NCBI RefSeq assembly: GCF_000800015.1
Contig: NZ_JUGR01000003.1
Coordinates: forward strand, 248,001-312,000
Source: Terriglobus sp. TAA 43
GTDB taxonomy: Bacteria > Acidobacteriota > Terriglobia > Terriglobales > Acidobacteriaceae
Direction of reading: 5' to 3'
Length of the DNA stretch: 64,000 nt
Shown here: positions 41,339-64,000 of the stretch, piece by piece
Numbering within the stretch: the stretch's first letter is position 1
Layout of the letters: each line of letters begins with the position of its first letter
The notes under the pieces: generated by a model
Database searches by the model: none
What the model was told of the DNA's origin: nothing
Seen by the model: only the letters and a program-made list of their open reading frames with translations
Position numbers and translations under genes: made by a program

Positions 41339-42787
41339 TTAAAGATGTTTTTGGAACCTATAGTTCAATTCCAGATAGCCATAGTTCGAGTCACGCATAC
41401 GCGGATACGTTCCCGCAATAACCGTCTTTCCATACGCATGTGCATAGTAGGCAGCGAGTGAAACACGAGGCGTCACTGCATAATCTGTGCTGATGTCGAA
41501 GAGAGACGAAAAGCTGTTGTGTCCATTCGATGGGCGCCCTGTGTATCCAAAGACTTTGGAATCAAAGGCACCTCCGCCCTGATACCAGAGGTCCTGGTTC
41601 GACGTGAGCTGCAGGAAATGGAGATCACTTCGGATCTCCACCTTCTTCCCCGGAGTGTCGACCATCTGCATGAAGCTGTCGGTGGAATTCATCAGGTTAT
41701 AGAACGGATCGCGTGCATACACTCGCGGCGTTGGGAGGATCTGAAAGAACGTGTTGTGTTTCCCATCGTTGGGATTGTTGTCGCCAGTCGAGCGGAAATA
41801 GCCTCCACGCACCCACGGCATGGATGACACGGTACTTAGTTTCAGACCACCTTCGATCGCAACAGCGCCGGCAGAGTGATCCAATAATCCCCAATGGCCA
41901 CTCTGCCCTGCGCCCCACACCACGAAATCCAGAGCCGCTCTCCCCACGGGGATCGCAGCAACAAGATCCCCACCATAGGTCCCGATGCGAATGTTTGAAT
42001 GATCCAAAGCTCTTGCTGCCGCGGAGCGGTTATCTGTCTTGGCAATCCCGGTGCGTCCGTCGTGATAGCCGAGGCCAAAGCCACGGAGTATTGCATGCTG
42101 TCCGACTGAGTGAGAGTACGACGCATACTGAATATCAACGTTAAGTTCGGGATTGGCGTTCATATTGAAGACACCTTGGGTGACGCGGCCAGCCATAGCC
42201 GTCATATCCCACCCTTTGTTTCCGACCTTCACATCGATACCGTCGAAGGATCTCTGGCCGTTCGAAAATCCAAAATTGCCAACAAGACGTTGTGCGACGC
42301 GATTGGTTTGTAGCCATCGAACGGATGTATCCTTCGGCGTTCCCTCCTGTCCGTCGAAGAACTCAAAACGACCAACACGGACGGAATCGAAGTCATTGTG
42401 AAAGTGATAGCGAAGGTAGCCCTGCCGAAACGATGCCGCAGCCGGGTAGGCATTGTTACTGTTCGCGGCGTAATACGTGCCACCAAGTCCAAGCTGTCCT
42501 TGTGCCGCCACGGAAGAGACAGCATCGGTGGGAAGAGCCAACTCTGCACTTTGTCCAAGGTCCAACATGTAATCCAGGTTATGTATTCGCTGCGTCAGGG
42601 AAAGACGCAGCAACGAGTCTTGATGCCCATAGACTTCGCTCGTTGGCGTCGCAGAAAACCATTGGGTTGCGTTCGTCCTTTGGCGAATCGAGACGGAGAC
42701 AGTTGGGTCCCCTGTTGCCGGGGAGGACGTTTGAGCAGACAACAAGGGAGCGGAACTCGCAAGCGCGAGCACGAAGAGTGATTTCAC
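41339..42787 (-). CDS. Outer-membrane porin (alginate-export-like beta barrel)
   Basis: This 482-residue outer-membrane protein has a signal peptide (KSLFVLALASSAPLLSAQ) and a long series of amphipathic beta strands, ending in ELNYRFQKHL. Segments such as FRQGYLRYHFHNDFDSVRVG, GRFEFFDGQEG and FGYTGRPSNGHNSFSSLFDI are typical of the alginate-export-like barrel family of large substrate channels. I chose the GTG at 42787 because a good AGGAGA site stands seven bases upstream; the longer frame from 42862 crosses it. It lies between narK and the small conserved protein in the nitrate operon and may allow nitrate or nitrite through the outer membrane, which is an inference from position. Confidence 0.75.
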   Translation of the reverse strand: MKSLFVLALASSAPLLSAQTSSPATGDPTVSVSIRQRTNATQWFSATPTSEVYGHQDSLLRLSLTQRIHNLDYMLDLGQSAELALPTDAVSSVAAQGQLGLGGTYYAANSNNAYPAAASFRQGYLRYHFHNDFDSVRVGRFEFFDGQEGTPKDTSVRWLQTNRVAQRLVGNFGFSNGQRSFDGIDVKVGNKGWDMTAMAGRVTQGVFNMNANPELNVDIQYASYSHSVGQHAILRGFGLGYHDGRTGIAKTDNRSAAARALDHSNIRIGTYGGDLVAAIPVGRAALDFVVWGAGQSGHWGLLDHSAGAVAIEGGLKLSTVSSMPWVRGGYFRSTGDNNPNDGKHNTFFQILPTPRVYARDPFYNLMNSTDSFMQMVDTPGKKVEIRSDLHFLQLTSNQDLWYQGGGAFDSKVFGYTGRPSNGHNSFSSLFDISTDYAVTPRVSLAAYYAHAYGKTVIAGTYPRMRDSNYGYLELNYRFQKHL

Positions 42788-42887
42788 GTTAGTCTCCTGT
42801 TGATCCATGCGCTGACCCGACCGGGGCCACGCGCAGCTTAAGGCTTCGGGATACAAGCCCATTGTGGAGGAGCGAGTCTTCGCAGTT

Positions 42888-44147
42888 TCAGACCGCGATC
42901 GCGGGACTTACGGGAACAATCACCTCAGAGCTGTCAGGTGCAGGAGACATCGCTCTTCCGCCCTTTCCAACCCATGTTCGTGTCCAACGTCGGGCAACGA
43001 GCCGCATCACGACCAACACCGCGATTGCGAACACTGCATAGATAGCAAAGCCTGCTGAGAAGGAACCGGTCTTTTGCTTCGAGATGCCAAGTACATTGGG
43101 CAGGATGCTTCCCCCAAGTGCGCCGATCTCACCAATCATGCCGCCCGCAATCGCCGTCGTGAGTGGCCACCGCAACGGAACGAGCTGAAAGGTCGCGCCG
43201 TTACCAGCACCCAACGCCGCAAAGCACAACATGAAGAGAAGTGTTGTCGCGGCCAACGATGGGGATGTCGTAAGACCAAAGATGCCCGCGATGGCTACGA
43301 GAAAGACAACGGAGAGCGTCGTAATCCCGCCGATCTTATCGGACAACCAACCGCCCAACACACGTGTCGCGCTTCCCAGCAGCGTTGCCATCATGGTCAA
43401 CGTGCCAGCCTCCGTTTTTGCCATGTGGAACTGCGACACAAACAACGAGGGCAGGAATGTTGCGAGTCCCAGGAAGCCGCCAAACGTGATGATGTAGATC
43501 AGGTTGAAGTACCAGCCATCGGCCTCCACAAGACACTTGAGGTGCTGCCCTAGAGTCTGGTGCTCTTTGTCAGGTGGTTCCTTCGCAAAGATGATCATGG
43601 TTAACAGAGGCAAGAGCATGAAGAGCGCAGCGACGCCGTATACGTTCGACCATCCGTAGACCTTCGCGAGACGCGGTGCGAAGAAGGCAGCAAGCGCTGT
43701 TCCGCTATTCCCTGCTCCCGCAATCCCCATCGCGAGGCCCTTGTATTCTTTCGGAAACCATCCTGCTCCAAGTGATAGTGCGACACCGAAGCTAGCGCCT
43801 GCGGTTCCCAACAAGACGCCCATCGCGAGGACGTTTGAAAATGTATGGACAAAAAAGAAGCCATACATCAACGCCGCAATGATGGTGAGCATCTCGATGA
43901 TGGCCGCACTTTTACGTCCGATGTACTGACCAAGCACACCCAACGGGAAGCGCATCAATGCCCCTGCCATGGTGGGTATGGAAACCATCAACCCTGTCTG
44001 TGCAGGGGAAAGATGAAACTGCTCGGTAATGAATGGCCCCATGGCACCATTGAGGACCCAGACAGCAAAGCTGAAGTCAAAGTACAGGAACGCTGCGAAG
44101 AGAGTTGGTGGATGTCCGGAACGTAAGAACGCCTTTGCGCTGGCCAT
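42888..44147 (-). CDS. narK: NarK-type nitrate/nitrite transporter
   Basis: This MFS permease of 419 residues has about twelve helices and carries the nitrate/nitrite signature: FSFAVWVLNGAMGPFI in helix 1, GTAGASFGVALSLGAGWFP, GIAGAGNSGTALAAFFAPR with the Gly-rich nitrate-signature motif, and GAGNGATFQLVPLRWP for the second nitrate signature. It imports nitrate, or exchanges it for nitrite, across the inner membrane. The gene follows the nitrate reductase gene by 129 bases and precedes the porin gene by 100 bases in the same operon, so its role in assimilation is well supported. Confidence 0.92.
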   Translation of the reverse strand: MASAKAFLRSGHPPTLFAAFLYFDFSFAVWVLNGAMGPFITEQFHLSPAQTGLMVSIPTMAGALMRFPLGVLGQYIGRKSAAIIEMLTIIAALMYGFFFVHTFSNVLAMGVLLGTAGASFGVALSLGAGWFPKEYKGLAMGIAGAGNSGTALAAFFAPRLAKVYGWSNVYGVAALFMLLPLLTMIIFAKEPPDKEHQTLGQHLKCLVEADGWYFNLIYIITFGGFLGLATFLPSLFVSQFHMAKTEAGTLTMMATLLGSATRVLGGWLSDKIGGITTLSVVFLVAIAGIFGLTTSPSLAATTLLFMLCFAALGAGNGATFQLVPLRWPLTTAIAGGMIGEIGALGGSILPNVLGISKQKTGSFSAGFAIYAVFAIAVLVVMRLVARRWTRTWVGKGGRAMSPAPDSSEVIVPVSPAIAV

Positions 44148-44276: not shown

Positions 44277-46445
44277 TTAGCGGCTGCGCTCGACGCGCAC
44301 AGCACACTGCTTGAAGTTTGGTTCGCGACTGATGGGATCGAAGGCGCCCAACGTAACGAGGTTGGAGTTCTGCTCCGCGAAGTGGAATGGCATGAAGACC
44401 TGTCCGGGCGCGACAATACCGGTGATTCGGAGCTCGATGCCCTCCACTCTTGCTCGACGAGACACCAACGTGATCCGGTCATGTTGACGCAAAGAAAGAC
44501 GATCCGCATCGATTGGATTCATCTCTAACCACGCATTGGGAACCATCCGGTCAAGCTGGGGAACAGCGCCCGTCTTGGTACGCGTATGCCAGTGCTCCAC
44601 CGTACGTCCTGTATTCAGGATGAAGTCGAATTCCTTATCCGGTTGCTCAGAGAATGGCAAGCACGGAACACAATGCAATTTTGCGCGTCCACCGTCGTAA
44701 GGAAATACACCATCCTTATACAGACTCGTACCGCCCCACTGCGCGCCGCCTTGTCCCTCCAACTGTACCCACGTAAAAGCACTGTAGTCACAGAGGCGAC
44801 CGGCTGATACACGCTGCCACTCCTGCCACGCATCGTGCGAAGAGGTCCATCCGGAAAACAACCTCTCGCGAACACCAAGCCGCTCCGCGATTGAAAGAAA
44901 AATCTCGAAGTCCGGACGCGCCTCTCCCGGAGGGGCAACGAACGCATTCACCTTGCTGACACGACGCTCTGAGTTGGTATAAGTTCCTTCCTTCTCACCC
45001 CAGATCGCAGCAGGGAGTACAAGGTCGGCATAGTCCATGGTGGGAGTTGGATAGAAGCCATCCTGCACCACAACAAACTCTGCCGTCGACAATGCCTGGG
45101 TCAGCAGCTTTACATTCGGGAAACTCACAACTGGGTTTGTCGCGATGAACCACAGAGCACGGACGCGTTTATCGAGCGCGGCCTCAATAATGTCTGGATA
45201 GGCGAGCCCACGCGACTTGGGCAGCTCGTCTTCGTCGATATTCCACAGTGCCGCGAGTTCCGCGCGATCCTTTGCGCTGTCGAATTTGCGATATCCCGGC
45301 ATACCAGAAGTAAAGCCGCTCTCGCGGGTTCCCATCGCGTTGCACTGTCCTGTAATGGAAAAAGGAGCAGATCCCAATTGGCCAATCTTTCCCGTGAGGA
45401 GTGCGAGGTTGTTGATCGCCGCAACCGTTACCGATCCTTGCGTGGAATGATTCACTCCCATCGTCCATCCAATGAAAGCGGACGACGCAGTTCCATAGAG
45501 GAAGGCGATATTCTCCATCGTCTCCGCGGTAAGCCCGGTCGTTCTTGCGACCGCCTCCGGAGTGAACTCGGCAACAAAGCGCCGCAACTCGTCCAGGCCT
45601 TCAGTGTGACTCTCAAGAAAGGCTTCATCAATCATGCCGTCGCGCAGAAGAATGTGCGCAATGCCATTCAACAAGGCGATGTCCGAACGTGGTTTGACCG
45701 GCAGATGAATATCCGCCATCATCGCCGTTTTGGTCACGCGAGGGTCGGCAACAATCAGAACCTGGCCTGGCCTTTTGCGGAGTCGGTTGCACAGAATCGG
45801 ATGATTATCCGCGATGTTAGAACCAACAAGGAGAACCACGTCCGCATGCTCCATGTCGGCATAGGAACCGGGCGGGCCATCAGAACCAAAACTGAGCTTG
45901 TAGCCCGATACGGCGGATGCCATACAGAGTGTCGTGTTGCCGTCGTAGTTCCGGCTGCGAAAACCGAGTTGAACGAGCTTGCCAAGCGTGAAGAACTCTT
46001 CCGTGAGCAACTGTCCCGTTCCGATCACGCCGAGTGTGTCGGAACCATGCGCACGCTGTAGGGCTGTAATACGTGCCACCATGACGTCCAGCGCTTCATC
46101 CCACGAGATGGGCTCAAGCGGCGATCCTTTTCCACCTCGTCGCAGCAATGGAGTACGGGCGCGACCCGGTGTATCGATCATCTGGTGCTCACTCAGCCCC
46201 TTAGGGCAAAGCTTACCAAGATTGACAGGATGATCAGGATTGCCGCGGACCGCCACTGCCTTGCCATCGCGGGTTCCCACCAGCATCCCGCAACCGACAG
46301 AACAGTAGCCACAAGTTGTCTTCGTCCACTGGTCAGCAATCCGGGATTCTGAGATATGTCCGAAAACTGGATCATTTCCGTAGGCATATTTCTTCTTCGC
46401 GGTGTCCAGTCCCAGCGCTCTCATCACTCGCTGCGAAATCGTCAT
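44277..46445 (-). CDS. nasA: Assimilatory-type nitrate reductase, molybdenum catalytic subunit
   Basis: This molybdopterin enzyme of 722 residues reduces nitrate to nitrite. A [4Fe-4S] motif C45-x2-C48-x3-C52-x27-C80 (CGYCSVGC, then KLCPKG) opens the chain. The molybdenum-coordinating region reads LCMASAVSGYKLSFGSDGPP as in NasA and NarB. The C-terminal pterin-binding domain starts near LNTGRTVEHWHTRTKTG. There is no Tat signal, so it works in the cytoplasm, and no extra C-terminal [2Fe-2S] domain. It overlaps by four bases the gene for a DmsB-DmsC-like electron-transfer and membrane-anchor fusion. This is unusual, because NasA-type enzymes normally receive electrons from a soluble flavoprotein or ferredoxin. 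Confidence 0.9.
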   Translation of the reverse strand: MTISQRVMRALGLDTAKKKYAYGNDPVFGHISESRIADQWTKTTCGYCSVGCGMLVGTRDGKAVAVRGNPDHPVNLGKLCPKGLSEHQMIDTPGRARTPLLRRGGKGSPLEPISWDEALDVMVARITALQRAHGSDTLGVIGTGQLLTEEFFTLGKLVQLGFRSRNYDGNTTLCMASAVSGYKLSFGSDGPPGSYADMEHADVVLLVGSNIADNHPILCNRLRKRPGQVLIVADPRVTKTAMMADIHLPVKPRSDIALLNGIAHILLRDGMIDEAFLESHTEGLDELRRFVAEFTPEAVARTTGLTAETMENIAFLYGTASSAFIGWTMGVNHSTQGSVTVAAINNLALLTGKIGQLGSAPFSITGQCNAMGTRESGFTSGMPGYRKFDSAKDRAELAALWNIDEDELPKSRGLAYPDIIEAALDKRVRALWFIATNPVVSFPNVKLLTQALSTAEFVVVQDGFYPTPTMDYADLVLPAAIWGEKEGTYTNSERRVSKVNAFVAPPGEARPDFEIFLSIAERLGVRERLFSGWTSSHDAWQEWQRVSAGRLCDYSAFTWVQLEGQGGAQWGGTSLYKDGVFPYDGGRAKLHCVPCLPFSEQPDKEFDFILNTGRTVEHWHTRTKTGAVPQLDRMVPNAWLEMNPIDADRLSLRQHDRITLVSRRARVEGIELRITGIVAPGQVFMPFHFAEQNSNLVTLGAFDPISREPNFKQCAVRVERSR

Positions 46446-47959
46446 ACGACCTCCGCGCGGTTGCCGATGAAGGTGAGGCCCATGCTAAGGGGCACAACAG
46501 ACACAAAGAAGAGGTATCTGCCGATGACGACAGTTACTGTGCCTGCAAACAGCGCAAGCCAAGGCAATGGAGCATATGCGAATAAGACCGATGCGCCTGC
46601 ACTGAGGAATGCCAGAGCGACCCAATAGAAGAGTTGCTCACCACGTAGCAGGTTGTAGCTGGCGCGCCACTCAAACAGGCTTGCGGAACGAAGCCGAACA
46701 ATGCGAATCGACTGATTCAATCCCCACAACATAGCAAACAGCAAAACCAGGTTGCGATGAAGCACGAATCCTCTTGTCATTACATCCGCGACGAGACTGC
46801 CGAGATAGGCAGCGGAAACGAGAAAATCAATGGGTGTATGGATCGTGTTCCACGAAGGTCTTGCCTTCACGAGATAGAGCGCGGCGCTAGCAAGAGTCCC
46901 GCACATCCCAAGCAATATGCCGAAATATGCAAGCGGAGTTATGGCCCACTGGAATTCTCGAAGCCACGCTGCGGCTGCGCATGCAGTCACACTGCCGTAG
47001 AAGAGACCGAAACACAAGACTTCGCGGCTAAGCCAGGAACGCCGCCACATGCGAATTGCGCGCCAGGCATATGCGGGTCTCCCCAGATGAAACACGGAAA
47101 CATTCAACGCGAATGTTGTCAGCAGCCAAAGAGATGTCAGAACCGCTGCGTTTAGTTCATGAGCCAGCGTCATCACGGCAAGTGCTCCAAACGACGCCTG
47201 CATCACCGTCGTCATCGCTATCAAGGATGGATGCGCATGCTCCAGGTGAATCGAGCCTGTATCTACGCGCTCCAACCAAGAGGACGACCGTTCAGGCAAG
47301 GTAATGCGAGTCGTCGAGACGGTCTGTCCAGCCGCAGGCATCCCAGGCGACTCTGCAGTATGAAAATCCTTACCCCATGCTTCCTTGTTCACGATCTCAA
47401 TCTGAATCGCATTTTCGGGACATGCATTCACACATGCTGGCTCTCGTCCATCCAGCAGACGCCCACGACACATGTCGCATTTCCCCACCACACCGCGCTC
47501 CGCATTGAACTGTGGAACGCTATAGGGACAATTCCACACACAGTATTGGCAACCGATGCAAGCATCCGTTGAATGCAACACAATCCCCGTGAGCGGATCT
47601 TTGGTATACGCATTGACTGGACAACCGCGCAGACAGTCCGCACTGAGACAGTGATTGCAGCCCATCGAAAGATAAGTGCGCTGCGTGTTCGGATAGACGC
47701 CGCCTTCCAGTTCGCCAACACGTCGCCACTGGATATGCGCCGGGTTGCCATTCTGCTCGTTACACGCCACCTCACACGAACGGCAGCCGATACACTTCGT
47801 CATGTCGAAATGGAAGCGATACTGCTCTCCTGCCTCAAGCGGCCGCGATGGAATCAGAGCCTGAGCAAGCTCTGGTGACGCGCCATTAGCGACGAGCGTC
47901 ATTCGCACCAAATCGGCGCTCTCTGCTTCCATCGCAATTTCTTGAAGAGGAAGAGGCAT
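46442..47959 (-). CDS. DmsB-DmsC fusion: four-cluster ferredoxin plus membrane anchor
   Basis: This 505-residue protein unites an iron-sulfur subunit with an integral membrane quinol-binding subunit of the DMSO reductase family. Residues 50-185 carry four [4Fe-4S] motifs (C56-C59-C62-C66, C101-C104-C109-C113, C134-C137-C140-C144, C161-C164-C176-C180). Residues about 245-500 have eight hydrophobic helices, as in DmsC. No signal peptide is present, so the clusters face the cytoplasm. It should take electrons from quinol and pass them to the nitrate reductase encoded next, whose start it overlaps. The starting ATG at 47959 stands five bases after the stop of the upstream flavoprotein gene. Usually DmsB and DmsC are two proteins. 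Confidence 0.88.
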   Translation of the reverse strand: MPLPLQEIAMEAESADLVRMTLVANGASPELAQALIPSRPLEAGEQYRFHFDMTKCIGCRSCEVACNEQNGNPAHIQWRRVGELEGGVYPNTQRTYLSMGCNHCLSADCLRGCPVNAYTKDPLTGIVLHSTDACIGCQYCVWNCPYSVPQFNAERGVVGKCDMCRGRLLDGREPACVNACPENAIQIEIVNKEAWGKDFHTAESPGMPAAGQTVSTTRITLPERSSSWLERVDTGSIHLEHAHPSLIAMTTVMQASFGALAVMTLAHELNAAVLTSLWLLTTFALNVSVFHLGRPAYAWRAIRMWRRSWLSREVLCFGLFYGSVTACAAAAWLREFQWAITPLAYFGILLGMCGTLASAALYLVKARPSWNTIHTPIDFLVSAAYLGSLVADVMTRGFVLHRNLVLLFAMLWGLNQSIRIVRLRSASLFEWRASYNLLRGEQLFYWVALAFLSAGASVLFAYAPLPWLALFAGTVTVVIGRYLFFVSVVPLSMGLTFIGNRAEVV

Positions 47960-47964
47960 AGGTG

Positions 47965-49707
47965 TTAGTACACGTCCCGGTGATAGCGGTTTTCGTCATG
48001 CAGCGCGGAAACATATTCCTGTGCTGCCTCATTCGTAAGGTTTCCGTGGGTCGACACGATGCGATGCAGGGCAACATCCACGTCCTTCGCCATACGACTC
48101 GCATCGCCACAAACGTACAAGGACGCGCCATCATTCAGCCATCGATATAGCTCCGCACCAGATTCAAGCATTCGGTCTTGCACGTACACTTTGTGCGCCT
48201 GATCACGAGAGAATGCGGTATCGAAGCGAGTCAGATGACCGTCGTCAACGAAAGACTTCATCTCGCAGCAATACAGAAAGTCCGTCTCTGCGCTGCGCTC
48301 TCCGAAAAACAACCAATTCTTCCCGGTATGCCCAAGTGCGCGACGCTCATGAAGAAATGCACGGAAGGGTGCAACACCCGTTCCGGGACCAATCATGATG
48401 ATCGGCGCCTCGGAATTCTTCGGCAGACGAAAGCGCTTGTTCGGATGCAGATAGATCGGCACTCGGGAGCCTATCTCCATTCTCCGTCCCAGCATCGTGG
48501 ACGCCACACCACCCCGGTCACGGCCGTGCGCGGTGTAGTTCACAACCCCAATTGTGCAGTGCAGTTCGCGCCCATGCGCGGTGGGACTAGACGAGATGGA
48601 ATATAGTCGAGGCGCAAGTCGTGGCAAAAGTTCGACCAGTTCGGCCGCGTTCGAAAGCACTCCTGGATAAGCATGCAGAAGATCGATCAACCCACGCCCA
48701 TAAAGGTATGTCTCCAATTCTCCCGTGTCTGCAGTGAGAAGCGTGGAGAGCGTCTGACATTGGGCCTTCTCTGCAAACCGTTGGACGACTTTGCGCGTCA
48801 ACTTCGTGATCTGAAGGTGATGCCGAAGAAGCTGCTGTACCGTGAGTGGTCCCGACTTGGGAAGAATGGCCGTATCGCTAGGTGAAAAACTAAGTAGCGC
48901 AAGAATCTCATCCACAAGTGCGGGATCGTTCTCAGCCAAAACACCACATGCATCCCCGGCTTCGTACTGCAGCTCCGCGTCCGTCAAATCAAAACCGACA
49001 TGCACGGTTTGTTTGCTCGATGAAGGATGGGTCAGCAGACGCTTATCAACTAGTGGTGCATGATATGGGTTTTCACGCGTATGCGCGAGGTTAACTGCAG
49101 CAGGCGAGGCGGTGATCTGTGCCGCTTCGCTCAACGTCGGACCGAAATCACAGAACGCCTTGAGAAGCTGCGCACTCCATGCACTGAACGGCGTATCGAC
49201 ATCCAAGTCACTCTCGACGCGTGCCGTGATGCGGGAGGCTCCGAGAGCGTTCAAGCGATCGTCTAGTTCGATTCCAAACTGGCAGAAGTGCTCATACGCA
49301 CGATCGCCAAGACAGAAGACTGCGTAACGAAGTGCTTGCAAACGGGGAGCATTGTCTGAGAAGAGAGCATCTCGAAAAGCGCATGCATTCTCAGGGGGCT
49401 CTCCTTCGCCGTAGGTGCTGGCAAAAAACAATGCATACGTCTCTTGTCCCAGCGCCGGCAGCGATAAGCTCTCCACTGATTGCACAGTCGGTGCATGTCC
49501 GGCTTCCCTAAGAAGCTTGGACATTTTTTTGGCAAGCCGCTCTGCCGTACCGCTCTGCGACGCGAAATATAAACCTAGGCGATAGCTCGCTTGCGGCGCG
49601 GGGGAGAGATGCTTGGGGAACAAATCAGCCAGTAACTTGTTGAGCCACGCTCGCTGTTCCGCGCTGAAGGGTGCATCTTCAGGAATGAATGGTGTCACGA
49701 CTTTCAT
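47965..49707 (-). CDS. Sulfite-reductase-type flavoprotein (CysJ-like diflavin reductase)
   Basis: This soluble diflavin reductase of 580 residues moves electrons from NADPH through FAD and FMN to a haem enzyme. An FMN flavodoxin domain (about 45-190, FASQSGTAERLAKKM and ASTYGEGEPPENA) is followed by a connecting/FAD domain (RLYSISSSPTAHGRELHC) and an NADPH domain (GPGTGVAPFRAFLHERRA, NWLFFGERSAETDFLY, LYVCGDASRMAKDV). All three are complete. It overlaps the nirA-like gene by four bases, so it is probably the electron donor of that siroheme enzyme. In nitrite assimilation such a partner is unusual: NirA enzymes normally use ferredoxin. A role in sulfite reduction cannot be excluded. Confidence 0.88.
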   Translation of the reverse strand: MKVVTPFIPEDAPFSAEQRAWLNKLLADLFPKHLSPAPQASYRLGLYFASQSGTAERLAKKMSKLLREAGHAPTVQSVESLSLPALGQETYALFFASTYGEGEPPENACAFRDALFSDNAPRLQALRYAVFCLGDRAYEHFCQFGIELDDRLNALGASRITARVESDLDVDTPFSAWSAQLLKAFCDFGPTLSEAAQITASPAAVNLAHTRENPYHAPLVDKRLLTHPSSSKQTVHVGFDLTDAELQYEAGDACGVLAENDPALVDEILALLSFSPSDTAILPKSGPLTVQQLLRHHLQITKLTRKVVQRFAEKAQCQTLSTLLTADTGELETYLYGRGLIDLLHAYPGVLSNAAELVELLPRLAPRLYSISSSPTAHGRELHCTIGVVNYTAHGRDRGGVASTMLGRRMEIGSRVPIYLHPNKRFRLPKNSEAPIIMIGPGTGVAPFRAFLHERRALGHTGKNWLFFGERSAETDFLYCCEMKSFVDDGHLTRFDTAFSRDQAHKVYVQDRMLESGAELYRWLNDGASLYVCGDASRMAKDVDVALHRIVSTHGNLTNEAAQEYVSALHDENRYHRDVY

Positions 49708-51491
49708 GCGCCCACCTCACTGAAGCGTTCAACCTTGCAAAAGCCACGCAACTCCCTGATAGTGTGCCGACCGCAGAACTCCAAGAACGACTCTCCCTGG
49801 ACGGCTTGTTCCATGTACTGCTTCATGATGTTGTGCAGCGCGGATTGGACTTCTTTATAAGGCAACCCGGGAAATAGCTCTCGAGCCAGCGCTTGATCGT
49901 TGTCAGCACCACCGCCCACGCTCACCTGATAGCCGGGCTCGCCGCCGATCTTCACTCCCATCAAACCGATATCGCCAATGTAGTGTTGTGCACAGGAGTG
50001 AGAGCAACCGGTGACGTGCAGGTTGATCGGCTGAAGAACCGGAAACGCTGCATCAAGTAAAGTTGCAAGTTCAAGAGCATGCCCTTTAGTGTCAGTCGCT
50101 GCGAAACGACATCCACGACTCCCTGTACATGCCACCGTACCGCTCAACACACGACCTGCTTCAACTTCGAGTCCCGCATTCCGAAGAGCTTCACGAGCCG
50201 CATCTAAGTTCTGCGTTGTGATGTTCGGCAGCAGCAGGTTTTGCCAGACGGTCAGGCGAATTTCTCCCGATCCATACCGATCGGCGACATCGGCAAGTGC
50301 GCGCGCTTGACCAACGGGAAGCCAACCCACAGGAACAACCACTCCGATGTAGTGCAATCCCAATTGCGGTTGTGCATGGATGCCAAGATGGGCTGTACGG
50401 TCAATCGCATTCCGCGACTCAGACTCTTCTGCGGAGATCCGTACGATTGGAAATGTCAGTTTCCTCTCTGTCTCTTCAAGAAAACGATCTGTCCCCCACT
50501 TGTCGATCAGGTACTTTAAACGAGCCTTTTTGCGGTCGGTTCGATCACCATGTTCTGCAAAGACACGCACCATGGCGGCTGCAACAGCAACCAATTGGTC
50601 CGGCCGCAACAGCAAACCACAGTCGGATGCGAACTGCCGGTGCCCCGTGATTCCACATAGCAACACGCGAAAGTAAACACCCGGGGGGACGGACTTCCGT
50701 TCCGCGATACGAACAGCAAGAAAGCCGATGTCGTTTGTGTCGGCAAGTGTGCTGATGGTGCCGCCGCCATCAAATGCGATGTTGAATTTTCGTGGCAGCC
50801 CGAACATATCGCTAGAGTTGAGGATGTAGGCCTGGAGCGCGTTCGCATATGGCCGCACGTCGATTAGTTCTGCAGCATCAATCCCTGCAAGCGGAGATGC
50901 AGTGATATTCCGAATGTTGTCCGCTCCAGAGCCTTGGGATGTCATGCCAAGGCAGCGCACTGCGTTCAAAACATCAACGATCGATCGCGGGGCAAATTCA
51001 CGAATCTGGACTCCTGCACGTGTCGTGATGTCGAGGCGGCCGCAACCAAATCGCTCTGCGATATCCGCCAGCCCCCTCAACTGATGGGTGCTCACAATTC
51101 CGCCCGGTGCGCGCAGACGCATCATGAAACTATCCTGCGCTGGAGCTACATGAAACAATCCATGGAACTTGAAGCGATAGCGGAACTCAGCATTGGGAAC
51201 TTTGTCTTCCGCCGCGTGCTCGAGCAATTCATCCCACAGATCCAAAGGATTGGAATCATACTTCCAGCGTTCTTCCGCGCATAAGTCTTCTACAGGTGTG
51301 TTGAAGAACGTTGGAGCATCCGCCAGATTCGGTCCACCAAGATTCTGATCGGCAGTGAATTGTCCCGAACCGACCTGTCCCACATAGGGATAGTTTTGAG
51401 CGACCGCAGCGAAAAAGCCCTGCAGATAGGCCTTTTGCTCCGACAAGAACTCTCCGGAGGCAATGATTTCAGGTGCTTGAACCTCTGCCAT
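49704..51491 (-). CDS. Siroheme nitrite/sulfite reductase (NirA-like haemoprotein)
   Basis: This 595-residue enzyme reduces nitrite to ammonia (or sulfite to sulfide) with a siroheme coupled to a [4Fe-4S] cluster. Two ferredoxin-like half-domains and two catalytic halves occur: FMMRLRAPGGIVSTHQLR, then CTGSRGCRF (C-x5-C) and VTGCSHSCAQH (C-x3-C), the four cluster ligands, and RYGSGEIRLTVWQNLLLPN. The pattern suits ferredoxin-type nitrite reductases. The ATG at 51491 has a GAGGAAGAG ribosome-binding site; the longer frame to 51509 is discarded. It is the first gene of the nitrate assimilation operon, so nitrite is the likely substrate. The upstream leader contains two hairpins and faces the HemD-GAF-ANTAR gene. 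Confidence 0.88.
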   Translation of the reverse strand: MAEVQAPEIIASGEFLSEQKAYLQGFFAAVAQNYPYVGQVGSGQFTADQNLGGPNLADAPTFFNTPVEDLCAEERWKYDSNPLDLWDELLEHAAEDKVPNAEFRYRFKFHGLFHVAPAQDSFMMRLRAPGGIVSTHQLRGLADIAERFGCGRLDITTRAGVQIREFAPRSIVDVLNAVRCLGMTSQGSGADNIRNITASPLAGIDAAELIDVRPYANALQAYILNSSDMFGLPRKFNIAFDGGGTISTLADTNDIGFLAVRIAERKSVPPGVYFRVLLCGITGHRQFASDCGLLLRPDQLVAVAAAMVRVFAEHGDRTDRKKARLKYLIDKWGTDRFLEETERKLTFPIVRISAEESESRNAIDRTAHLGIHAQPQLGLHYIGVVVPVGWLPVGQARALADVADRYGSGEIRLTVWQNLLLPNITTQNLDAAREALRNAGLEVEAGRVLSGTVACTGSRGCRFAATDTKGHALELATLLDAAFPVLQPINLHVTGCSHSCAQHYIGDIGLMGVKIGGEPGYQVSVGGGADNDQALARELFPGLPYKEVQSALHNIMKQYMEQAVQGESFLEFCGRHTIRELRGFCKVERFSEVGA

Positions 51492-51550
51492 GGCAACTCT
51501 TCCTCGCACTGCATCAAGTAGGCGAGCCCAGAGTCAAAGATTCGGAGTGG

Positions 51551-51606
51551 GTCAGCGGCACAAGCTTCGAGAACACGCTGACGCACACTCAATCGCGAAT
51601 CGAGTG
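51551..51606 (-). promoter_or_regulatory. Two tandem leader hairpins upstream of the nitrate operon, possible ANTAR target
   Basis: In the minus-strand leader, CACTCGAT and ATTGAGTG (51606-51586) form an eight-base-pair stem, with one G-U pair, around a five-base loop. Three bases later GTCAGCG and CGCTGAC (51582-51551) form a perfect seven-base-pair stem with an 18-base loop. ANTAR proteins bind tandem hairpins, usually with six-base loops having A at position 1 and G at position 4. These loops do not fit that rule, so the assignment is tentative. They stand 60-115 bases before the nirA-like start. Confidence 0.4.
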
Positions 51607-51724
51607 ACATCTGGGCTCATCGTGGAGCTTGTTTCGTAACGCTGGAACCGGCGCACCTTGGGGCCAGTCAAAAGCAGGAAGGAAGCTGTCCGGCAGTCAT
51701 GGCAGGACGTACTTCAATACGCGA

Positions 51725-51753
51725 AGTATGACATGACACGTTCCGAACCGCAA
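51725..51753 (-). promoter_or_regulatory. Possible sigma-70 promoter of the nitrate operon
   Basis: On the minus strand TTGCGG (51753-51748) and CATACT (51730-51725) are separated by 17 bases and match the -35 and -10 boxes partly (three and four of six). Transcription from about 51718 would give a leader of some 227 bases containing the two hairpins. Confidence 0.35.
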
Positions 51754-51885
51754 TGGGAAAGATTCCTAACCATCGCCAAGGATCATGTTCTGGGCCGGCA
51801 CAGAATGCAGTTCGAACACGTTACACTCAAGAAACTTCGGCAGTTTTCTGTTTTAACCGCTGCCCATTCTCTTTGGGAGTAATGC

Positions 51886-53538
51886 ATGCGTCATGCCAGC
51901 TTCGATGGTCTGCGAGTGCTATCGCTTGAGACCCGTCGCGCCCGCGAAGTCGAAAAGCTGATCCGCACGTATAACGGCGACCCCATCGTTGTGTCCGCGA
52001 TGCGAGAGATTCCCCTCGAATCGAATACCGATTGCTTCGCATTCGGGGAACGTCTTCTCAACGGCGACTTCGATCTCCTCATCTTTCTGACAGGGATCGG
52101 GGTCACCAAACTCCTCCAGACTTTAGAGACCAGGTATTCACAGGGCGCAATCCTGGAGCAATTCCGAAAACGTGAAGTGGTCACGCGTGGAGTGAAGCCT
52201 GTTGCCGTTTTACGGGAGCTCCAGGTGCCCGTGTCCGCGTCGACTGAGGAACCCAGCACATGGCATGAAGTGCTTGCACTGCTCGATTCGCAGTATGGGC
52301 AGCAGCTCGGCGGGTTTCGCGTTGCGGTACAGGAATACGGCGCAACCAATCCGGAATTCATCGCGGAGCTGGTTGGTCGTTGCGCAGAGGTTACAAAGGT
52401 TCCCGTATATCAATGGGGCCTGCCACTTGATCTCGAACCATTGCGCGATGCAGTACGCCGCCTTTGCGACGGCGAAATTGACGTTGTCTTGTTCATGACG
52501 GCGGTACAGGTGATTCATCTGTTCCAAATCGCTGATGAATTGGGTTTACGCGAGATGCTGAGCATCGCCTTGCAGCAAGCCATGGTCGTTTCGATTGGAC
52601 CCACTACCACGGAGGAGTTGAAGCACTACGGCGTTCAACCAGACTTCGAGCCTTCGCGTCCTCGCATGGGCTTCATGGTGAATGAAGCTGCGCAATACGC
52701 CAAGAAGCTTCTGGCCGAGAAGAGATCAGTGCAAACGTCGTCTACTGCCGCACCCAGTGTGAGACCGCGTCCACCCTACCGCGGGAGCGTGCAACAGGTC
52801 GCACCTTCTACTTCTGCGATGTCTGGATTCCGAGACGGCTTGGCTCCGTTTGACGTGCTGCAGGAAATCAGCAGTCATATCGCATCCACAGACCCGCTTC
52901 ACGTCACACTTTCACGCATCGTGACGCTCGTGTCCATCGTCATTCCATGTGATTCCTGCTTCCTGTACACACTGGAAGACGACAAACTTGTCTTACGCGC
53001 CTCACGGAATCCCCATACGGAAGAACTCGACCATCTCAAGCTCTCCATCGGCGAAGGCGTTACCGGATGGGTTGCGGAACATCGCGAAACAGTTGCCATT
53101 CCGGAACGAGCAAGTGAAGACCCCCGCTTCAGTGCGTTCGTCAGTCTGCCGGAGGACCGCTTCGAAGCGATGCTATGCGCCCCCGTAAGTTGCGCAAATC
53201 GTGTCGTGGGAGTTCTGAATGTGCAGCACAGGCAGCCTTACCAACATAGCGAGTTGGAGCAGAGAATGCTCTCCACTGTTGGCATTCTCGTCGGAGCAGA
53301 AATTGAACGCGCTCGTCTCGAAACGGAGAACTCTGTCCTCACGAACAGGCTTGAAACCCGCAAGCTCGTCGATCGTGCCAAAGGCATCTTGCAGCGTGAT
53401 CTGAATCTTTCCGAGGACGACGCGTACCGGAACATGCAGCGGGAAAGCCGACAGCGAAGAAAGTCCATGCGCGAAATTGCTGAAGCAATACTTTTGGCTG
53501 ACAGCTTGAGACGCGACAAGAATGCACGATCCGAATGA
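51886..53538 (+). CDS. HemD-GAF-ANTAR fusion regulator, probable antiterminator of nitrate assimilation
   Basis: This 550-residue protein joins three domains. Residues 8-277 resemble uroporphyrinogen-III synthase (HemD), with LIFLTGIGVTKLL, VVLFMTAVQVIHLFQ and VVSIGPTTTEELKHYGV. After a Ser/Pro/Thr-rich linker, residues 326-475 form a GAF domain (FDVLQEISSHIASTDPLH, GEGVTGWVAEHRETVAI). Residues 483-541 form an ANTAR RNA-binding domain (LVDRAKGILQRDLNLSEDDA, YRNMQRES, REIAEAIL). ANTAR proteins such as NasR bind leader RNA and prevent termination. HemD-like domains are known in regulators of nitrite assimilation in actinobacteria, for example NnaR, there joined to a DNA-binding domain. It is divergent from the nirA-like operon. 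A GGGAG site precedes the ATG. Whether the HemD domain is enzymatic or senses tetrapyrrole supply is open. Confidence 0.88.
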   Translation: MRHASFDGLRVLSLETRRAREVEKLIRTYNGDPIVVSAMREIPLESNTDCFAFGERLLNGDFDLLIFLTGIGVTKLLQTLETRYSQGAILEQFRKREVVTRGVKPVAVLRELQVPVSASTEEPSTWHEVLALLDSQYGQQLGGFRVAVQEYGATNPEFIAELVGRCAEVTKVPVYQWGLPLDLEPLRDAVRRLCDGEIDVVLFMTAVQVIHLFQIADELGLREMLSIALQQAMVVSIGPTTTEELKHYGVQPDFEPSRPRMGFMVNEAAQYAKKLLAEKRSVQTSSTAAPSVRPRPPYRGSVQQVAPSTSAMSGFRDGLAPFDVLQEISSHIASTDPLHVTLSRIVTLVSIVIPCDSCFLYTLEDDKLVLRASRNPHTEELDHLKLSIGEGVTGWVAEHRETVAIPERASEDPRFSAFVSLPEDRFEAMLCAPVSCANRVVGVLNVQHRQPYQHSELEQRMLSTVGILVGAEIERARLETENSVLTNRLETRKLVDRAKGILQRDLNLSEDDAYRNMQRESRQRRKSMREIAEAILLADSLRRDKNARSE

Positions 53539-59392: not shown

Positions 59393-60340
59393 CTAAACCT
59401 CAAGTCCCATCACGTGATCCGCCCCATGGTAGATATTGAACCGGTTCTCGCGAAGAAACCCGATGAGGGTTACATCAAATTGCTCTGCGACGCGCACTGC
59501 GAGGCTTGAAGGGGCACCCACCGAAGCAATCATTGGAATCCCGGCCATGACCGCTTTCTGTAGCAGCTCGAAGCTAGCTCGACCAGAAAGAAGCAACAGT
59601 CGCTGAACCAGCGGAGTTCGGTCCGCAAGAAATTCGGCTCCGAGCAATTTGTCGACCGCGTTATGCCGCCCTACGTCCTCACGCAGGGAGAGTAAGTTCC
59701 CTTCGCGATCGAAGAGTCCCGCGGCATGAAGTCCGCCCGTCTGCTGAAAGTTGCCTTGGGCTCTGCGCAAACGATCGGGCACGCTCAGGAGAACACTCGC
59801 GGCGATGTCGAAGGCATTGGATCGCCGAGGGGGACAAACACTCCGCAGGGCCAGGAGTGACGCTTTGCCGCAGATCCCACAACTCGACGTGGTGTAGAAG
59901 TTGCGCTCCAGGGTATTGAGTGAGATTTCTACGTCCGGCGCCAGTTCAATGAGTATGGAGTTTCTCGCATGTACGAGTTCGTCATCAGCGTCGCTCTCTC
60001 GCTCTACTTCGGGCGCTCGCGCGGCTACGGTAATGCGCTCAATATCATCTGGTTCTCGAAGCACGCCTTCTGTCAGCAGAAACCCAATCGTCAATTCCGC
60101 ATCGTTTCCGGGCGTACGCATCGTCACGGCAATGGATTTAACCGTTCGATTGTTGCTCGGTCCGTAAGCAAGCTTGATCTCAAGTGGCTCTTCGACTGCC
60201 AAAGCGTCCGAGACGAAAGCAGACTGATTGGCCTCCACCTTAAGAATCTCTCGGCGCCTGGTACCTGCAATCGGCAGCGTCTTGAGTGGCATGGGGTTGG
60301 AGCTTTCAGTCTCCCTCGGTAGAACCAGATGATCCGCCAT
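59393..60340 (-). CDS. fdhD: Formate dehydrogenase accessory sulfurtransferase FdhD
   Basis: FdhD passes sulfur from a cysteine desulfurase to the molybdenum cofactor, which formate dehydrogenase requires. The 315-residue protein carries VEEPLEIKLAYG, the strand TIGFLLTEGVL, the active Cys loop SSCGICGKAS, TGGLHAAGLFDREG, REDVGRHNAVDKLLG and the C-terminal GRASFELLQKAVMAGIPM, ASVGAPSSLAV. All conserved blocks are intact. The gene lies 36 bases after the DUF1641 gene in the formate dehydrogenase operon. Confidence 0.95.
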   Translation of the reverse strand: MADHLVLPRETESSNPMPLKTLPIAGTRRREILKVEANQSAFVSDALAVEEPLEIKLAYGPSNNRTVKSIAVTMRTPGNDAELTIGFLLTEGVLREPDDIERITVAARAPEVERESDADDELVHARNSILIELAPDVEISLNTLERNFYTTSSCGICGKASLLALRSVCPPRRSNAFDIAASVLLSVPDRLRRAQGNFQQTGGLHAAGLFDREGNLLSLREDVGRHNAVDKLLGAEFLADRTPLVQRLLLLSGRASFELLQKAVMAGIPMIASVGAPSSLAVRVAEQFDVTLIGFLRENRFNIYHGADHVMGLEV

Positions 60341-60376: not shown

Positions 60377-60820
60377 CTACTTCTCAGTGCGAGCGAGAGC
60401 GGCGCCAAACACTCCCAGTAGAGAGAGCCCGACTGACATTCCCCGCCGCACATCCTCATTGTTCATTGTGCCGACGAGCGAAATGAGAGATGGAGCCTTC
60501 TTTTCCGGAGATGTCAGAAGCGTATGGACGCGATCCACTTCCACTGCGCTGAGAAGATTCCCCAACAGCAGACCAATACGCACTGCGTTGACAGCTTCCT
60601 TAGAACTAACAACATCCGTCACTTTTTCAATGACCGTATCGCTGGCCCGAAGAGCTCCATTCAGAGCAGACAGGATGCCTTTCTCGTGGAGACTCTCAAG
60701 CAGATCGTATGCCTCCAGGATCGCGTCCGCGTGTTCTTGAGGGGCTGCTTCGATGCGACGAATCAGGTCATCCCGCGAGTTGGCAGGCTTGAAATGGCGA
60801 AACTCCACTGCCTTTGCCAT
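60377..60820 (-). CDS. DUF1641 protein of formate dehydrogenase operons
   Basis: This 147-residue cytoplasmic protein has the DUF1641 pattern: LLESLHEKGILSALNGALRA, then helices with VIEKVTDVVSSKEAVNAVRI and a C-terminal NNEDVRRGMSVGLSLLGVFG. The family regularly accompanies formate dehydrogenase alpha subunits and FdhD, but its function is not established; a partner or assembly role is likely. The ATG at 60820 overlaps the stop of the dehydrogenase gene by one base (TAATG), so the longer frame from 60910 is not used. Confidence 0.85.
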   Translation of the reverse strand: MAKAVEFRHFKPANSRDDLIRRIEAAPQEHADAILEAYDLLESLHEKGILSALNGALRASDTVIEKVTDVVSSKEAVNAVRIGLLLGNLLSAVEVDRVHTLLTSPEKKAPSLISLVGTMNNEDVRRGMSVGLSLLGVFGAALARTEK

Positions 60821-63800
60821 TAGGCTTCCATTCCTTTCTTGTGACCGTTGGTGCTCTGAATGGTGACTAACTGCGGCGCGCCGGGTTCGTGATAATCCTT
60901 TCGCTTCCACTTGCGTTCTACTTCGACACCCATTTGCGGTGTGGGCCTTCCGTTAGCGCGAAAGTTCAATGGGTTGAGGGGGCTGTTCCCCAACTCCTCC
61001 AGAACCATCAAGTTCACGGCAGTTTCTTTGTACGCGGGAGTGTTGGTCGCATCGTCCGCATGAGAGCCTGTCAGGACATTCACCGGCCCTTCCTGCGACA
61101 ACAAAGGGAGATATACTTGACGGCCCTCCACACGAGACGTCACAAGAGCCTTGATCTTGATGGAGCCATGTCGACTGGTGAGCCGTATCCAACGTCCCGA
61201 CTCCACACCGCGTTCCTGCGCGAGTTCTGGCGAGATCTCGACGTAGCGCTCGGGGGTTTCCTCATGAATTCCATGAACACGATTGGTCATGTTGCCTTCG
61301 TGGAAGTGTTCAAGCTGCCGACCGTTATTCAGGAATAAATCGAACTCGGTATCAGGCTGCTCGAGAGGCTCAACGAAGGAGACAGGATAGAAACGTGCTT
61401 TCCCATCTGGAAAAGGAAAGCCATTCAGATAAAGAACTGGCTGATCCACGCCCTCTTCCGAAATCGGCCATTGCTGTGTGTCATAGCCCTGCAGCCGTGC
61501 ATAGCTTGCACCAGCATAGATAGGACTCAGGGATGCCATTTCCGCTAAGATTTCGGAGGGATGCGAGTAGTTCCAATCCGCACCCATATGCCGCGCGATC
61601 TCCTGAGTGATCTTCCAATCCGCCTTCGCATCTCCTAGCTCCGGGAGAGCTTGGTACAGACGCTGAATGCGACGTTCCGTATTGGTGAAGGTGCCGTCTT
61701 TTTCGAGAGCGGGGGCTGCTGGGAGGATCACATCTGCATAACGACAGGTCTCGGTGAAAAAGATATCCTGCAGCACCATAAAGTCCAGCTTCTCAAATGC
61801 TTTGGCTACGTGATTGGAGTTGGAATCCGCCCCGATCATATCCTCACCAGCGATGTACATCGCGCGAAGTTTACCTTCGATCGCAGCTTCCACCATCTGG
61901 TGGTTGTCCATTCCACGATCAGCAGGGAGCTTCACTCCCCAGTTCTTCTCAAACTTTTCACGGACCGCAGGATCATCTACCGCTTGATAGCCCGGATAGA
62001 AGTTTGGCGCCGCTCCCATGTCGCCTGCACCCTGCACGTTGTTATGTCCGCGTAGAGGATATGCGCCGCCGGCACGATGTCCATAGTTGCCCGTCGTCAG
62101 CAGCAGGTTCGAAATGGCGGTTGATGTGTCCGATCCACGGATGTGCTGCGTTACACCCATGGCCCAGCAAATCGCCACGGTTTTAGCCGCCGCGAGTTCT
62201 TTTGCAAGTTGCTCAAGTGTTGCCAACGGAATCTGGCATACATGGGAGGCATATTCCAGGGTGAAGGGCTCTAGGCTCTGTCGAAAAGCTTCAAGATTGT
62301 TCACCGATTTCTCGATGAAGTCCAGCTTTGCATGGCCGTGATCGAACATGTATCGGCTCATCGCGGAAAGCCAGACCAGATCGGTACCGGGTCGAGGGCG
62401 GAAGTGTAGGTCGGCACGCTGTGCCAGCTCGTTGTTCCGAGGATCAGCAACGATCAGCTTCGTGCCGAAGAACTTGTGTGCCCTCTTCATGCGCGCTGCG
62501 AGCACGGGATGGGCTTCCGCCGAGTTTGCGCCAACGATGAGAATCACACTCGAAAAAACGAGATCCTCAAAGGAACCGGAGTCACCTCCATAGCCGACAG
62601 TTCGGAAGAGGCCAGTAGTCGCGGGAGACTGGCAGTACCGCGAACAGTTGTCGATATTCTGCGTACCGATCACCTGACGCCCAAACTTCTGCATCAGGTA
62701 AATCTCCTCATTTGTTGTCTTCGACGATGCGATGACTGCCAAAGAGTCCGGACCTGTTTCAGCTTTGATCTGAGTGAACTTCGACGCCACCAGTGTGAGA
62801 GCTTCTTCCCAGGATGCTTCACGGAATGTGTCTCCTTCCCGAATAAGAGGCTTCTTCAGGCGATCTTCGTGGTTGACGAAGTCCCATCCGAATTTGCCCT
62901 TCACGCAGGTCGAGATTTGATTGGAGTCGCCATGGGCTGGAACGACCTTGAGGATCTTGCGGTCTTTCGTCCAGACATCGTAGCTACAACCAACCGCACA
63001 GTACGTGCAGACTGTCTTGGTCTTCTTGATGCGAGACTCGCGCATGTGGGCCTCTACCTCTGAGACCTGCATGATCACACCGTAGCCCATTTCAGGCTCA
63101 ATCTCCTTTACGACATCGATTAACTTATCGAGGGCCGCATGCGGGAGATTCGTCATGTAGCCGGCCTCGCCGAGCATGGACTTCTCCATCAAGGCATTGC
63201 AAGGACAGACAGTCACGCACTGTCCGCATGAGACACAACTCGACCCTCCGATCTGCATTCCTCCATCCCACAGCACGCGAGGACGATCCAACTCCCAGCC
63301 AATCGAGAGCGTCTCGTTGACCTGTACGGTTTGACACGCTTGAACACACTGGCCACAGAGGATGCACTGGCTAGGATCGTAGCGATAGAAGGGATTGGAC
63401 ATATCCACTTCATATGGCTTCGGTGTGAAAGGAATTTTCTGATGCTCTACTCCGAGAGATCTCGTCGTGTTGTGGACTCGACAGTTCTCGTTGTTGTTAT
63501 CGCATACCGTGCAATACAACATGTGGTTGCCAAGAATCGTGTCGAGAGCCTCCATCCGCGCAGCCTTTGCACGTGCAGTATCGGTGACGGCATTCATCCC
63601 AGCCTTGATGCTCGTGCCGCAGGCGCGAACGATCTCCCCGTCGACCTCAACCATACATGTGTCACAGGTTTCGATTGGGCCCATCAGGCGAGAGTGATAG
63701 CAGATGTGAGGTAGATCCTTCTCATTCAGAATTGAATCGATTAGAAGATCCTCGGTATGCGCCACGATCTGCTTCCCATCCAGCACAAACAAAACTTCCT

Positions 63801-63903
63801 GGGGGACGGTGGATACTGGCCGAAACGCAGAAAACTTTTGTTCAGGGAACATACGCTGACTTGGCTCTACTGCGCCAACAACTTCAGATTTTGGCAAGCT
63901 CAT
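60820..63903 (-). CDS. Formate dehydrogenase alpha subunit, soluble multi-cluster type with Cys ligand
   Basis: This molybdenum (or tungsten) enzyme of 1027 residues oxidises formate to CO2. Order from the N-terminus: a plant-type [2Fe-2S] domain (ligands about C68, C80, C83, C95), the His-Cys3 cluster (H127, C131, C134, C141), two ferredoxin [4Fe-4S] motifs (CILCGQCVQAC and CVSCGQCVTVC), the catalytic [4Fe-4S] (CTYCAVGC and C333), and the pterin domains. The Mo ligand is Cys 424 in SRYCQSPATTG, so no selenocysteine is used. There is no signal peptide, and no gene for a membrane anchor or NADH module is seen in this window, so its partner is unknown. ATG 63903 follows a GGGAGG site; ATG 63927 would add eight residues. 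It is the first gene of the operon in the window. Confidence 0.93.
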   Translation of the reverse strand: MSLPKSEVVGAVEPSQRMFPEQKFSAFRPVSTVPQEVLFVLDGKQIVAHTEDLLIDSILNEKDLPHICYHSRLMGPIETCDTCMVEVDGEIVRACGTSIKAGMNAVTDTARAKAARMEALDTILGNHMLYCTVCDNNNENCRVHNTTRSLGVEHQKIPFTPKPYEVDMSNPFYRYDPSQCILCGQCVQACQTVQVNETLSIGWELDRPRVLWDGGMQIGGSSCVSCGQCVTVCPCNALMEKSMLGEAGYMTNLPHAALDKLIDVVKEIEPEMGYGVIMQVSEVEAHMRESRIKKTKTVCTYCAVGCSYDVWTKDRKILKVVPAHGDSNQISTCVKGKFGWDFVNHEDRLKKPLIREGDTFREASWEEALTLVASKFTQIKAETGPDSLAVIASSKTTNEEIYLMQKFGRQVIGTQNIDNCSRYCQSPATTGLFRTVGYGGDSGSFEDLVFSSVILIVGANSAEAHPVLAARMKRAHKFFGTKLIVADPRNNELAQRADLHFRPRPGTDLVWLSAMSRYMFDHGHAKLDFIEKSVNNLEAFRQSLEPFTLEYASHVCQIPLATLEQLAKELAAAKTVAICWAMGVTQHIRGSDTSTAISNLLLTTGNYGHRAGGAYPLRGHNNVQGAGDMGAAPNFYPGYQAVDDPAVREKFEKNWGVKLPADRGMDNHQMVEAAIEGKLRAMYIAGEDMIGADSNSNHVAKAFEKLDFMVLQDIFFTETCRYADVILPAAPALEKDGTFTNTERRIQRLYQALPELGDAKADWKITQEIARHMGADWNYSHPSEILAEMASLSPIYAGASYARLQGYDTQQWPISEEGVDQPVLYLNGFPFPDGKARFYPVSFVEPLEQPDTEFDLFLNNGRQLEHFHEGNMTNRVHGIHEETPERYVEISPELAQERGVESGRWIRLTSRHGSIKIKALVTSRVEGRQVYLPLLSQEGPVNVLTGSHADDATNTPAYKETAVNLMVLEELGNSPLNPLNFRANGRPTPQMGVEVERKWKRKDYHEPGAPQLVTIQSTNGHKKGMEA

Positions 63904-64000
63904 CGGTCCCTCCCACCACATTGCCATGATATGCGCCGTCTACATGTATGCATCGGATAAGTGAGAGGCTCCCTGCGTGCGGTCGGGATTTACCGACGGC

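Follow-up and report, generated by a model that had tools for sequence, protein, structure and literature searches.

Why a protein joining a uroporphyrinogen-III-synthase-like (HEM4) domain to an ANTAR domain should be encoded beside a nitrate assimilation operon is the question raised by a locus of Terriglobus sp. TAA 43, analysed here in a 64,000-nucleotide stretch of DNA that we call the window. The regulator gene (51886..53538, plus strand) is a single open reading frame of 550 codons from ATG to stop, and it is divergent from nirA-cysJ-FeS/DmsC-nasA-narK on the minus strand, with a porin gene last. As the preliminary description had it, this operon requires siroheme: nirA (49704..51491, minus; start assumed at ATG 51491, GTG 51509 also being possible) encodes a ferredoxin-type assimilatory nitrite reductase that scores 774.8 bits against NF007126, over its cut-off of 523. 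Downstream on the same strand lie a CysJ-like flavoprotein reductase identified by profile match (47965..49707), a 4Fe-4S DmsB-like protein with a membrane-anchor (FeS/DmsC) part (46442..47959; FeS by profile, membrane part by eye), a NasA/NasC-like assimilatory nitrate reductase (44277..46445), a NarK-type nitrate/nitrite transporter (42888..44147; TIGR00886, below its cut-off), and at the operon end an alginate-export-type porin (41339..42862), homologues of which carry the RNA motif described below in some relatives. The NasA/NasC-like molybdoenzyme falls below the equivalog cut-offs, and its top-scoring model is a formate dehydrogenase alpha subunit. Formate-dehydrogenase-like and FdhD-like genes were also recognized by eye near the nitrate operon (60820-63927 and 59393-60340). 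We propose, with a probability of about 0.8, that the fusion is a one-component RNA-binding regulator of nitrate assimilation that acts through a predicted target of two hairpins, P1 and P2, in the nirA leader.

The combination of HemD-like, GAF and ANTAR domains in one 550-residue chain, read earlier from the sequence alone, is upheld by Pfam, with all three matches above the curated cut-offs: HEM4 at residues 22-265 (51949..52680, plus; PF02602, E 3.4e-28, and Foldseek), GAF at residues 338-473 (52897..53304, plus; E 1.6e-15) and ANTAR at residues 485-536 (53338..53493, plus; E 5.6e-18), the last scoring 64.9 bits against a cut-off of 27.3. The same arrangement is read as an unbroken frame and single chain in 51 distinct proteins. 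An AlphaFold model of the fusion, computed from an alignment of 38 fusions (mean pLDDT 82.7, pTM 0.51), places HEM4 at the N-terminus, followed by a low-confidence segment (287-333), the GAF domain and then the ANTAR helices, and in this model residues 456-506 form one helix that leads from GAF into ANTAR. Foldseek ranks Thermus uroporphyrinogen-III synthases at the top for the fusion, followed by PtsP GAF domains; the HEM4 part matches the Thermus enzyme at E 5.6e-17 with 23-26% identity in the alignments. The ANTAR part has sequence matches to Rv1626, EutV and NasR, and two cysteines of the GAF domain, C355 and C358, are conserved in at least 50 of the 51 fusions.

The genome context narrows the assignment of both ends of the protein. 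Terriglobus sp. TAA 43 has one ANTAR match and two HEM4 matches, the regulator included in each case. Because the fusion is the only ANTAR match in the genome, an ANTAR-type RNA target points to it. The second HEM4 gene, hemD, lies directly behind hemC, with hemA about 2.3 kb before hemC, and this separate hemC-hemD pair makes the fusion probably dispensable for uroporphyrinogen III supply. The best NCBIfam scores are for NF004584 and NF005568 with the HEM4 part of the fusion and for NF004593 with the other HemD, all of them below their cut-offs.

Near-full-query matches to the fusion, among the matches listed for 297 genomes of the phylum, are confined to the family of the window. The fusion was read in at least 33 of 200 family genomes, in two of them in broken frames, and this NirA is present in 23 of the 200 among the matches listed (22 nearly full-length at 59% identity or more and one in pieces; NirA-like matches at 32-38% identity were taken as sulfite reductases and left out of the count). 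Within the family, again among the matches listed, all 23 genomes with NirA have the fusion versus 10 of the 177 others. Five of these ten have NirB, in two cases as contig-end fragments. Gene order gives the same association, since 38 of 51 distinct fusions, near copies included, lie in a nitrite reductase locus, adjacent to it or with one gene between. Thus the proposed tie of an ANTAR RNA-binding regulator to nitrate genes stands for the NirA genomes, where the leader motif agrees with it, and does not stand as a universal rule: one fusion of the 51 is beside a cobA-like gene, 12 are elsewhere, and neither this NirA nor NirB was found in five of the 33 fusion genomes. Eight of the 12 belong to one clade, and two genomes (G195 and G036) each have one fusion copy inside and one outside a nitrite reductase locus. 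Excluded before the count of 51 were L127 and L128 (broken frame), L138 (HEM4 match beginning at residue 4) and loci with repeated proteins (e.g., L051 and L066).

Several of these loci have features of their own. Behind the fusion in L134 and L136 stands a CobA-like gene, which in L134 is a tetrapyrrole methylase by Pfam, and L135 contains a Met8-type siroheme synthase gene. At L131:4566-9309 and in L132, both outside nitrite reductase loci, the fusion lies behind LarE/LarC/LarB-like nickel-pincer cofactor genes, two of which in L131 are supported by Pfam (Ni_insertion and AIRC). The fusion gene is in two frames in L127 and L128 and nirA is in three pieces in L124, which reflects decay or assembly error.

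A cross-genome alignment of the nitrite reductase leaders, inspected by eye, contains a constant GCTC-CNNGNN-GAGC block with a hairpin preceding it. In the window the preceding hairpin, P1 (51650..51665, minus; from the leader alignment), is GGCCC[CAAGGU]GCGCC, a hexaloop with G at position 4 (G4) on a stem with one C.C mismatch common to several relatives in the window's clade, and the constant block is P2 (51615..51628, minus; from a pattern search and models R1 and R2), GCUC[CACGAU]GAGC, a hexaloop with C1 and G4. A pattern that fixes the P2 stem and loop G4 and leaves all else free is found in 34 of 37 nirA-locus leaders, near copies included, and is absent from L124, L125 and L126; loop position 1, which the pattern left free, is C in 34 of 34. 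Other genes preceded by the pattern are nirB in L137, porin genes in L122 and L118 (a short one of 276 aa in L118) and a formate/nitrite transporter gene in L128; assignment of the L128 second site as a porin leader was rejected since that transporter gene intervenes. The search for P1 required G4 and a Watson-Crick closing pair, and the P1 strings of L038 and L062 were set by hand. All 24 P1-P2 pairs aligned in this way have two hexaloops with a closing C:G pair and G at position 4, the arrangement known from ANTAR targets, although the invariance is partly built in because the P2 stem, G4 of both loops and the P1 closing pair are in the search rules. At position 1 these pairs have C or U without exception, in place of the A of the canonical target, and the linkers between hairpins are 16-42 nt.

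The P2 stem cannot vary within the 24-pair set. In P1, three of five pair positions have both-sided changes (8 cells), with a covariation score that 0 of 500 shuffles attain; further pair types are no more numerous than in shuffles (477 of 500 attain their number), and at one P1 position the pair is broken in 7 of the 24 leaders. The two-hairpin shape is matched once in the window and once across 100 block-shuffled versions of it. The stem rule used detected no canonical dual hexaloops, meaning strong-stemmed AnnGnn hairpins, in the nirA leader of the window, and no Rfam family matches the window at gathering threshold. Five genomes have an additional copy of the motif that faces the gene upstream of the regulator (L056:7989-8053, L058:11997-12059, L061:8016-8078, L062:7025-7086 and L055:12040-12107; R1 E 0.003-0.016), all five with a 7-base P2 loop, which suggests feedback on the regulator's own transcript. 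In L062 the gene at this second site encodes a porin; in L055, L056, L058 and L061 it is without a Pfam match.

Model searches bear on how specific the motif is to genomes with the fusion. The R1 match in the window (51613-51667, minus; 45.4 bits, E 1.6e-8) is that of a training member, and the nirA leader is the only strong match in the window's genome. With 140 first-look candidates scored per genome, the best R1 match has an E under 1e-3 in 23 of 38 genomes with the fusion and in 0 of 38 relatives that lack it (best 0.008). By coordinates the 23 matches are nirA leaders, except those of G346 and G416 (nirB) and G325 (porin); 19 of the 23 genomes are training members or near copies, the others being G397, G249, G036 and G416. 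The nirB leader of G353 follows at E 0.010 and the nirA leaders of G329, G195 and G408 at 0.013-0.019. A G408 match at E 0.0022 was taken as chance, as the site is by an epimerase-like gene (by eye). R1 is weak in six fusion genomes with NirA or NirB (G465, G444, G435, G330, G401 and G364; best E 0.039-0.61), and its best matches in five fusion genomes without either enzyme have E 0.012-0.085. For model R2 the training set consisted of 12 nirA leaders of family branches other than that of the window, which was held out; the model was run over 70 loci (1.19 Mb), seven of which hold training members. With those seven removed, the first 13 ranks are all nitrite reductase leaders, two of them nirB, in the order L117 (close to a training member), L063, L127, L137, L120, L032, L059, L158, L065, L050, L038, L125 and the window (E 0.063); the first unrelated match, in L078, follows at E 0.074. 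Lower down are L126 at E 0.096 and L033 with a partial match at E 1, and at that threshold over the 70 loci R2 missed L036, L037, L054, L121, L123, L124, L163 and the nirA leader of L122.

The nirA leader of the window also contains a conserved promoter-like element and a helix that competes with P2. The former, TTGCGG-N17-CATACT (51725..51753, minus), belongs to a strict pattern, TTGC-N17/18-YATACT, which 10 of 24 leaders have, each from the window's clade, and which begins 125-140 nt ahead of P2; a generic promoter scan of 51400-51950 flagged none, this element included. The left arm of the alternative helix, GAGCCCAGA (51610..51618, minus), overlaps the P2 3' arm and pairs with a right arm, UCUGGGCUC (51524..51532, minus), about 30 nt before the nirA start. 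The minimum-energy fold of the window leader has this helix, with a P2 probability of 0.00. Taken over its full length, the leader exceeds shuffles in stability by a moderate margin only (z -1.62). Against mononucleotide shuffles the helix has z -1.8 to -4.6 in nine of ten window-clade leaders (the window, L050, L036, L037, L038, L033, L053, L054 with p 0.053, and L127) and z -0.8 in L032. Its pairs were counted by script because MAFFT alignment of whole leaders misaligns the right arm: four successive pairs have both-sided changes among the nine leaders, with few independent events, and the two outermost pairs are broken in three and four of the nine. The helix is not significant in 12 second-clade leaders (L039-L041, L055-L059, L061-L063 and L065), in seven further nirA leaders, in two second-site (porin/transporter-side) leaders or in the L137 nirB leader. 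An off state common to all leaders was therefore dropped, as the helix is significant in the window's clade alone among those computed.

How such a leader would control nirA bears on the antitermination of nitrite reductase that the preliminary description had suggested; no terminator-like site was found in 51400-51950. In antitermination of the NasR/EutV type, the masking helix would be a transcription terminator whose formation is prevented by ANTAR binding. The leaders share the two-hairpin plan of NasR and EutV, and in the window's clade P2 is exclusive with a stable downstream helix, so that one part of the expected switch is present; its U-tract is absent, since the window helix has no U-run after it, and the helix lacks significance in the other leaders computed. 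We regard this as a serious possibility short of even odds, and give the same standing to control of translation, in which the ribosome binding site would be hidden within the leader and made accessible or inaccessible by the ANTAR protein. An ANTAR precedent for translational control is described for actinobacteria in excerpts of PMC8164766, and two leaders, L118 and L128, fold so that the segment between P1 and P2 pairs with the ribosome site and start of nirA. That pairing is clear in only two of 20 leaders folded, however, and the window's masking helix stops about 30 nt before the nirA start.

Two further explanations would remove RNA from the argument or make it secondary, and both appear improbable. 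The inverted repeats could be DNA operators of an unrelated transcription factor rather than RNA hairpins, as GGCAC-N6-GTGCC and GCTC-N6-GAGC are palindromic as DNA too. Yet P1 in the window begins about 60 bp downstream of the conserved -10, the order and orientation of P1 and P2 relative to the target gene are constant, their stem sequences differ, and P2 loop position 3, the mirror of G4, varies; we consider operators quite unlikely. Hardly better placed is the view that HEM4 works as a uroporphyrinogen-III synthase to raise siroheme supply, with regulation secondary. The HEM4 fold is intact by Foldseek, another lineage has a related domain joined to uroporphyrinogen decarboxylase, and the fusion precedes a cobA-like gene in two loci, all of which are consistent with activity. 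Against it, the genome has its own hemC and hemD side by side with hemA near, and the HemD-domain regulator NnaR is reported, in excerpts of PMC6277429, to be without the activity.

An RNA-binding regulator accommodates these observations in the following scheme. The GAF domain would read a signal and the HEM4 domain would perhaps read one from the tetrapyrrole pathway, and the signal would run along the long helix to the ANTAR domain, a dimer of which may grip the tandem hexaloops P1 and P2 found in the nirA 5' leader. In the window's clade the long helix is predicted to mask the P2 3' arm, and because P2 and this helix are mutually exclusive, ANTAR binding would open the leader and allow nirA expression. 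The off state might stop transcription without a U-tract or stop translation; since the window has no terminator-like site, both termination and translation are kept as the output step. Elsewhere the motif before nirB, formate/nitrite transporter and porin genes may define a small regulon. More tentatively, and with doubt, a tetrapyrrole intermediate at HEM4 together with a nitrogen signal sensed by GAF might license a YnnGnn-coded ANTAR dimer to open the leaders of nitrite reductase and nitrite transport genes. If so, siroheme-dependent nitrite reductase would be made only when cofactor supply is possible.

The statement that no example of this architecture had been described agrees with our full-text literature searches (one result set covered in part), in which no HEM4-GAF-ANTAR description was found; a PIRSF paper was rejected as an account of it because ANTAR appears only in its reference list. 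GAF-ANTAR proteins were named as uncharacterised in 2012 (excerpts of PMC3369931), and the fusion is a GAF-containing ANTAR protein that comes with its probable RNA targets. Its significance lies in an ANTAR regulator with a two-part sensor and a concrete candidate RNA target of altered loop code, and in a way to test whether cofactor supply and nitrite reductase are linked in soil acidobacteria.

Stand-alone GAF-ANTAR proteins of Acidobacteriota are homologous to the C-terminal half of the fusion at 60% identity or less, are mostly 240-280 aa and lack the HEM4 fusion; no nitrite reductase neighbour was recognized at 12 of their loci inspected by eye over about 4.5-6 kb. One of them (L091:823-5926) has genes for a siroheme synthase and a tetrapyrrole methylase at a distance of about 3 kb, which may connect it to siroheme even though it is not fused. 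At L129:6062-9544 and L130:5407-8732 GAF-ANTAR and HEM4 each have a gene of their own, the two sharing a strand and separated by about 2 kb, possibly a pre-fusion or split state. Among other HEM4 proteins, one at L086:9560-11587 in another acidobacterial family is fused to uroporphyrinogen decarboxylase (HemD-HemE), long open frames surround HEM4 in L084, L087, L089 and L090, and at L080:5460-10421 a stand-alone HEM4 gene and a sulfite-reductase-like gene are transcribed away from each other, with a Met8-like siroheme synthase near (by eye). The fusion shares the HEM4 fold with HemD and differs from it in location, being outside the hem cluster whereas the genome's other hemD adjoins hemC.

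The sensor part of NasR is a NIT domain. In EutV it is a receiver (excerpts of PMC8934654), and HEM4-GAF takes this place here. Like NasR of Klebsiella, which serves nitrate assimilation, and EutV of Enterococcus, the fusion has an ANTAR output and a candidate target of tandem hexaloops with G4 and a closing C:G pair. Excerpts of PMC7496416, PMC8934654 and PMC3369931 describe the NasR/EutV target as two tandem hexaloops with G4 and A at position 1, and the terminal C:G pair as found in NasR selection. Unlike these, the acidobacterial loops have C or U at position 1, the window leader has no intrinsic terminator that we found, and the linkers exceed the 5-12 nt of the eut hairpins (excerpts of PMC3369931). 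The loose first position is not wholly new, because A1 and G4 are only >50% conserved in actinobacterial ANTAR targets (excerpts of PMC8164766). Arg522 occupies the place of EutV Met172, a residue that may plug the hexaloop according to excerpts of PMC8934654, and 51 of 51 fusions have Arg there. Since nine of 11 stand-alone GAF-ANTAR proteins share this Arg, it is a trait of the acidobacterial group and was rejected as sole cause of the loop change, though it is possibly matched to the changed hexaloop code. NnaR of Streptomyces and Mycobacterium has a HemD-like domain and is needed for nitrite reductase and NarK expression (excerpts of PMC6277429). The fusion resembles it as a candidate nitrate-gene regulator with such a domain, here from gene linkage and the leader motif, and differs in that GAF and ANTAR replace the DNA-binding domain, none being present among its Pfam matches. 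In sum, the fusion is a variant of ANTAR control, NnaR-like in its sensor part and NasR-like in its output.
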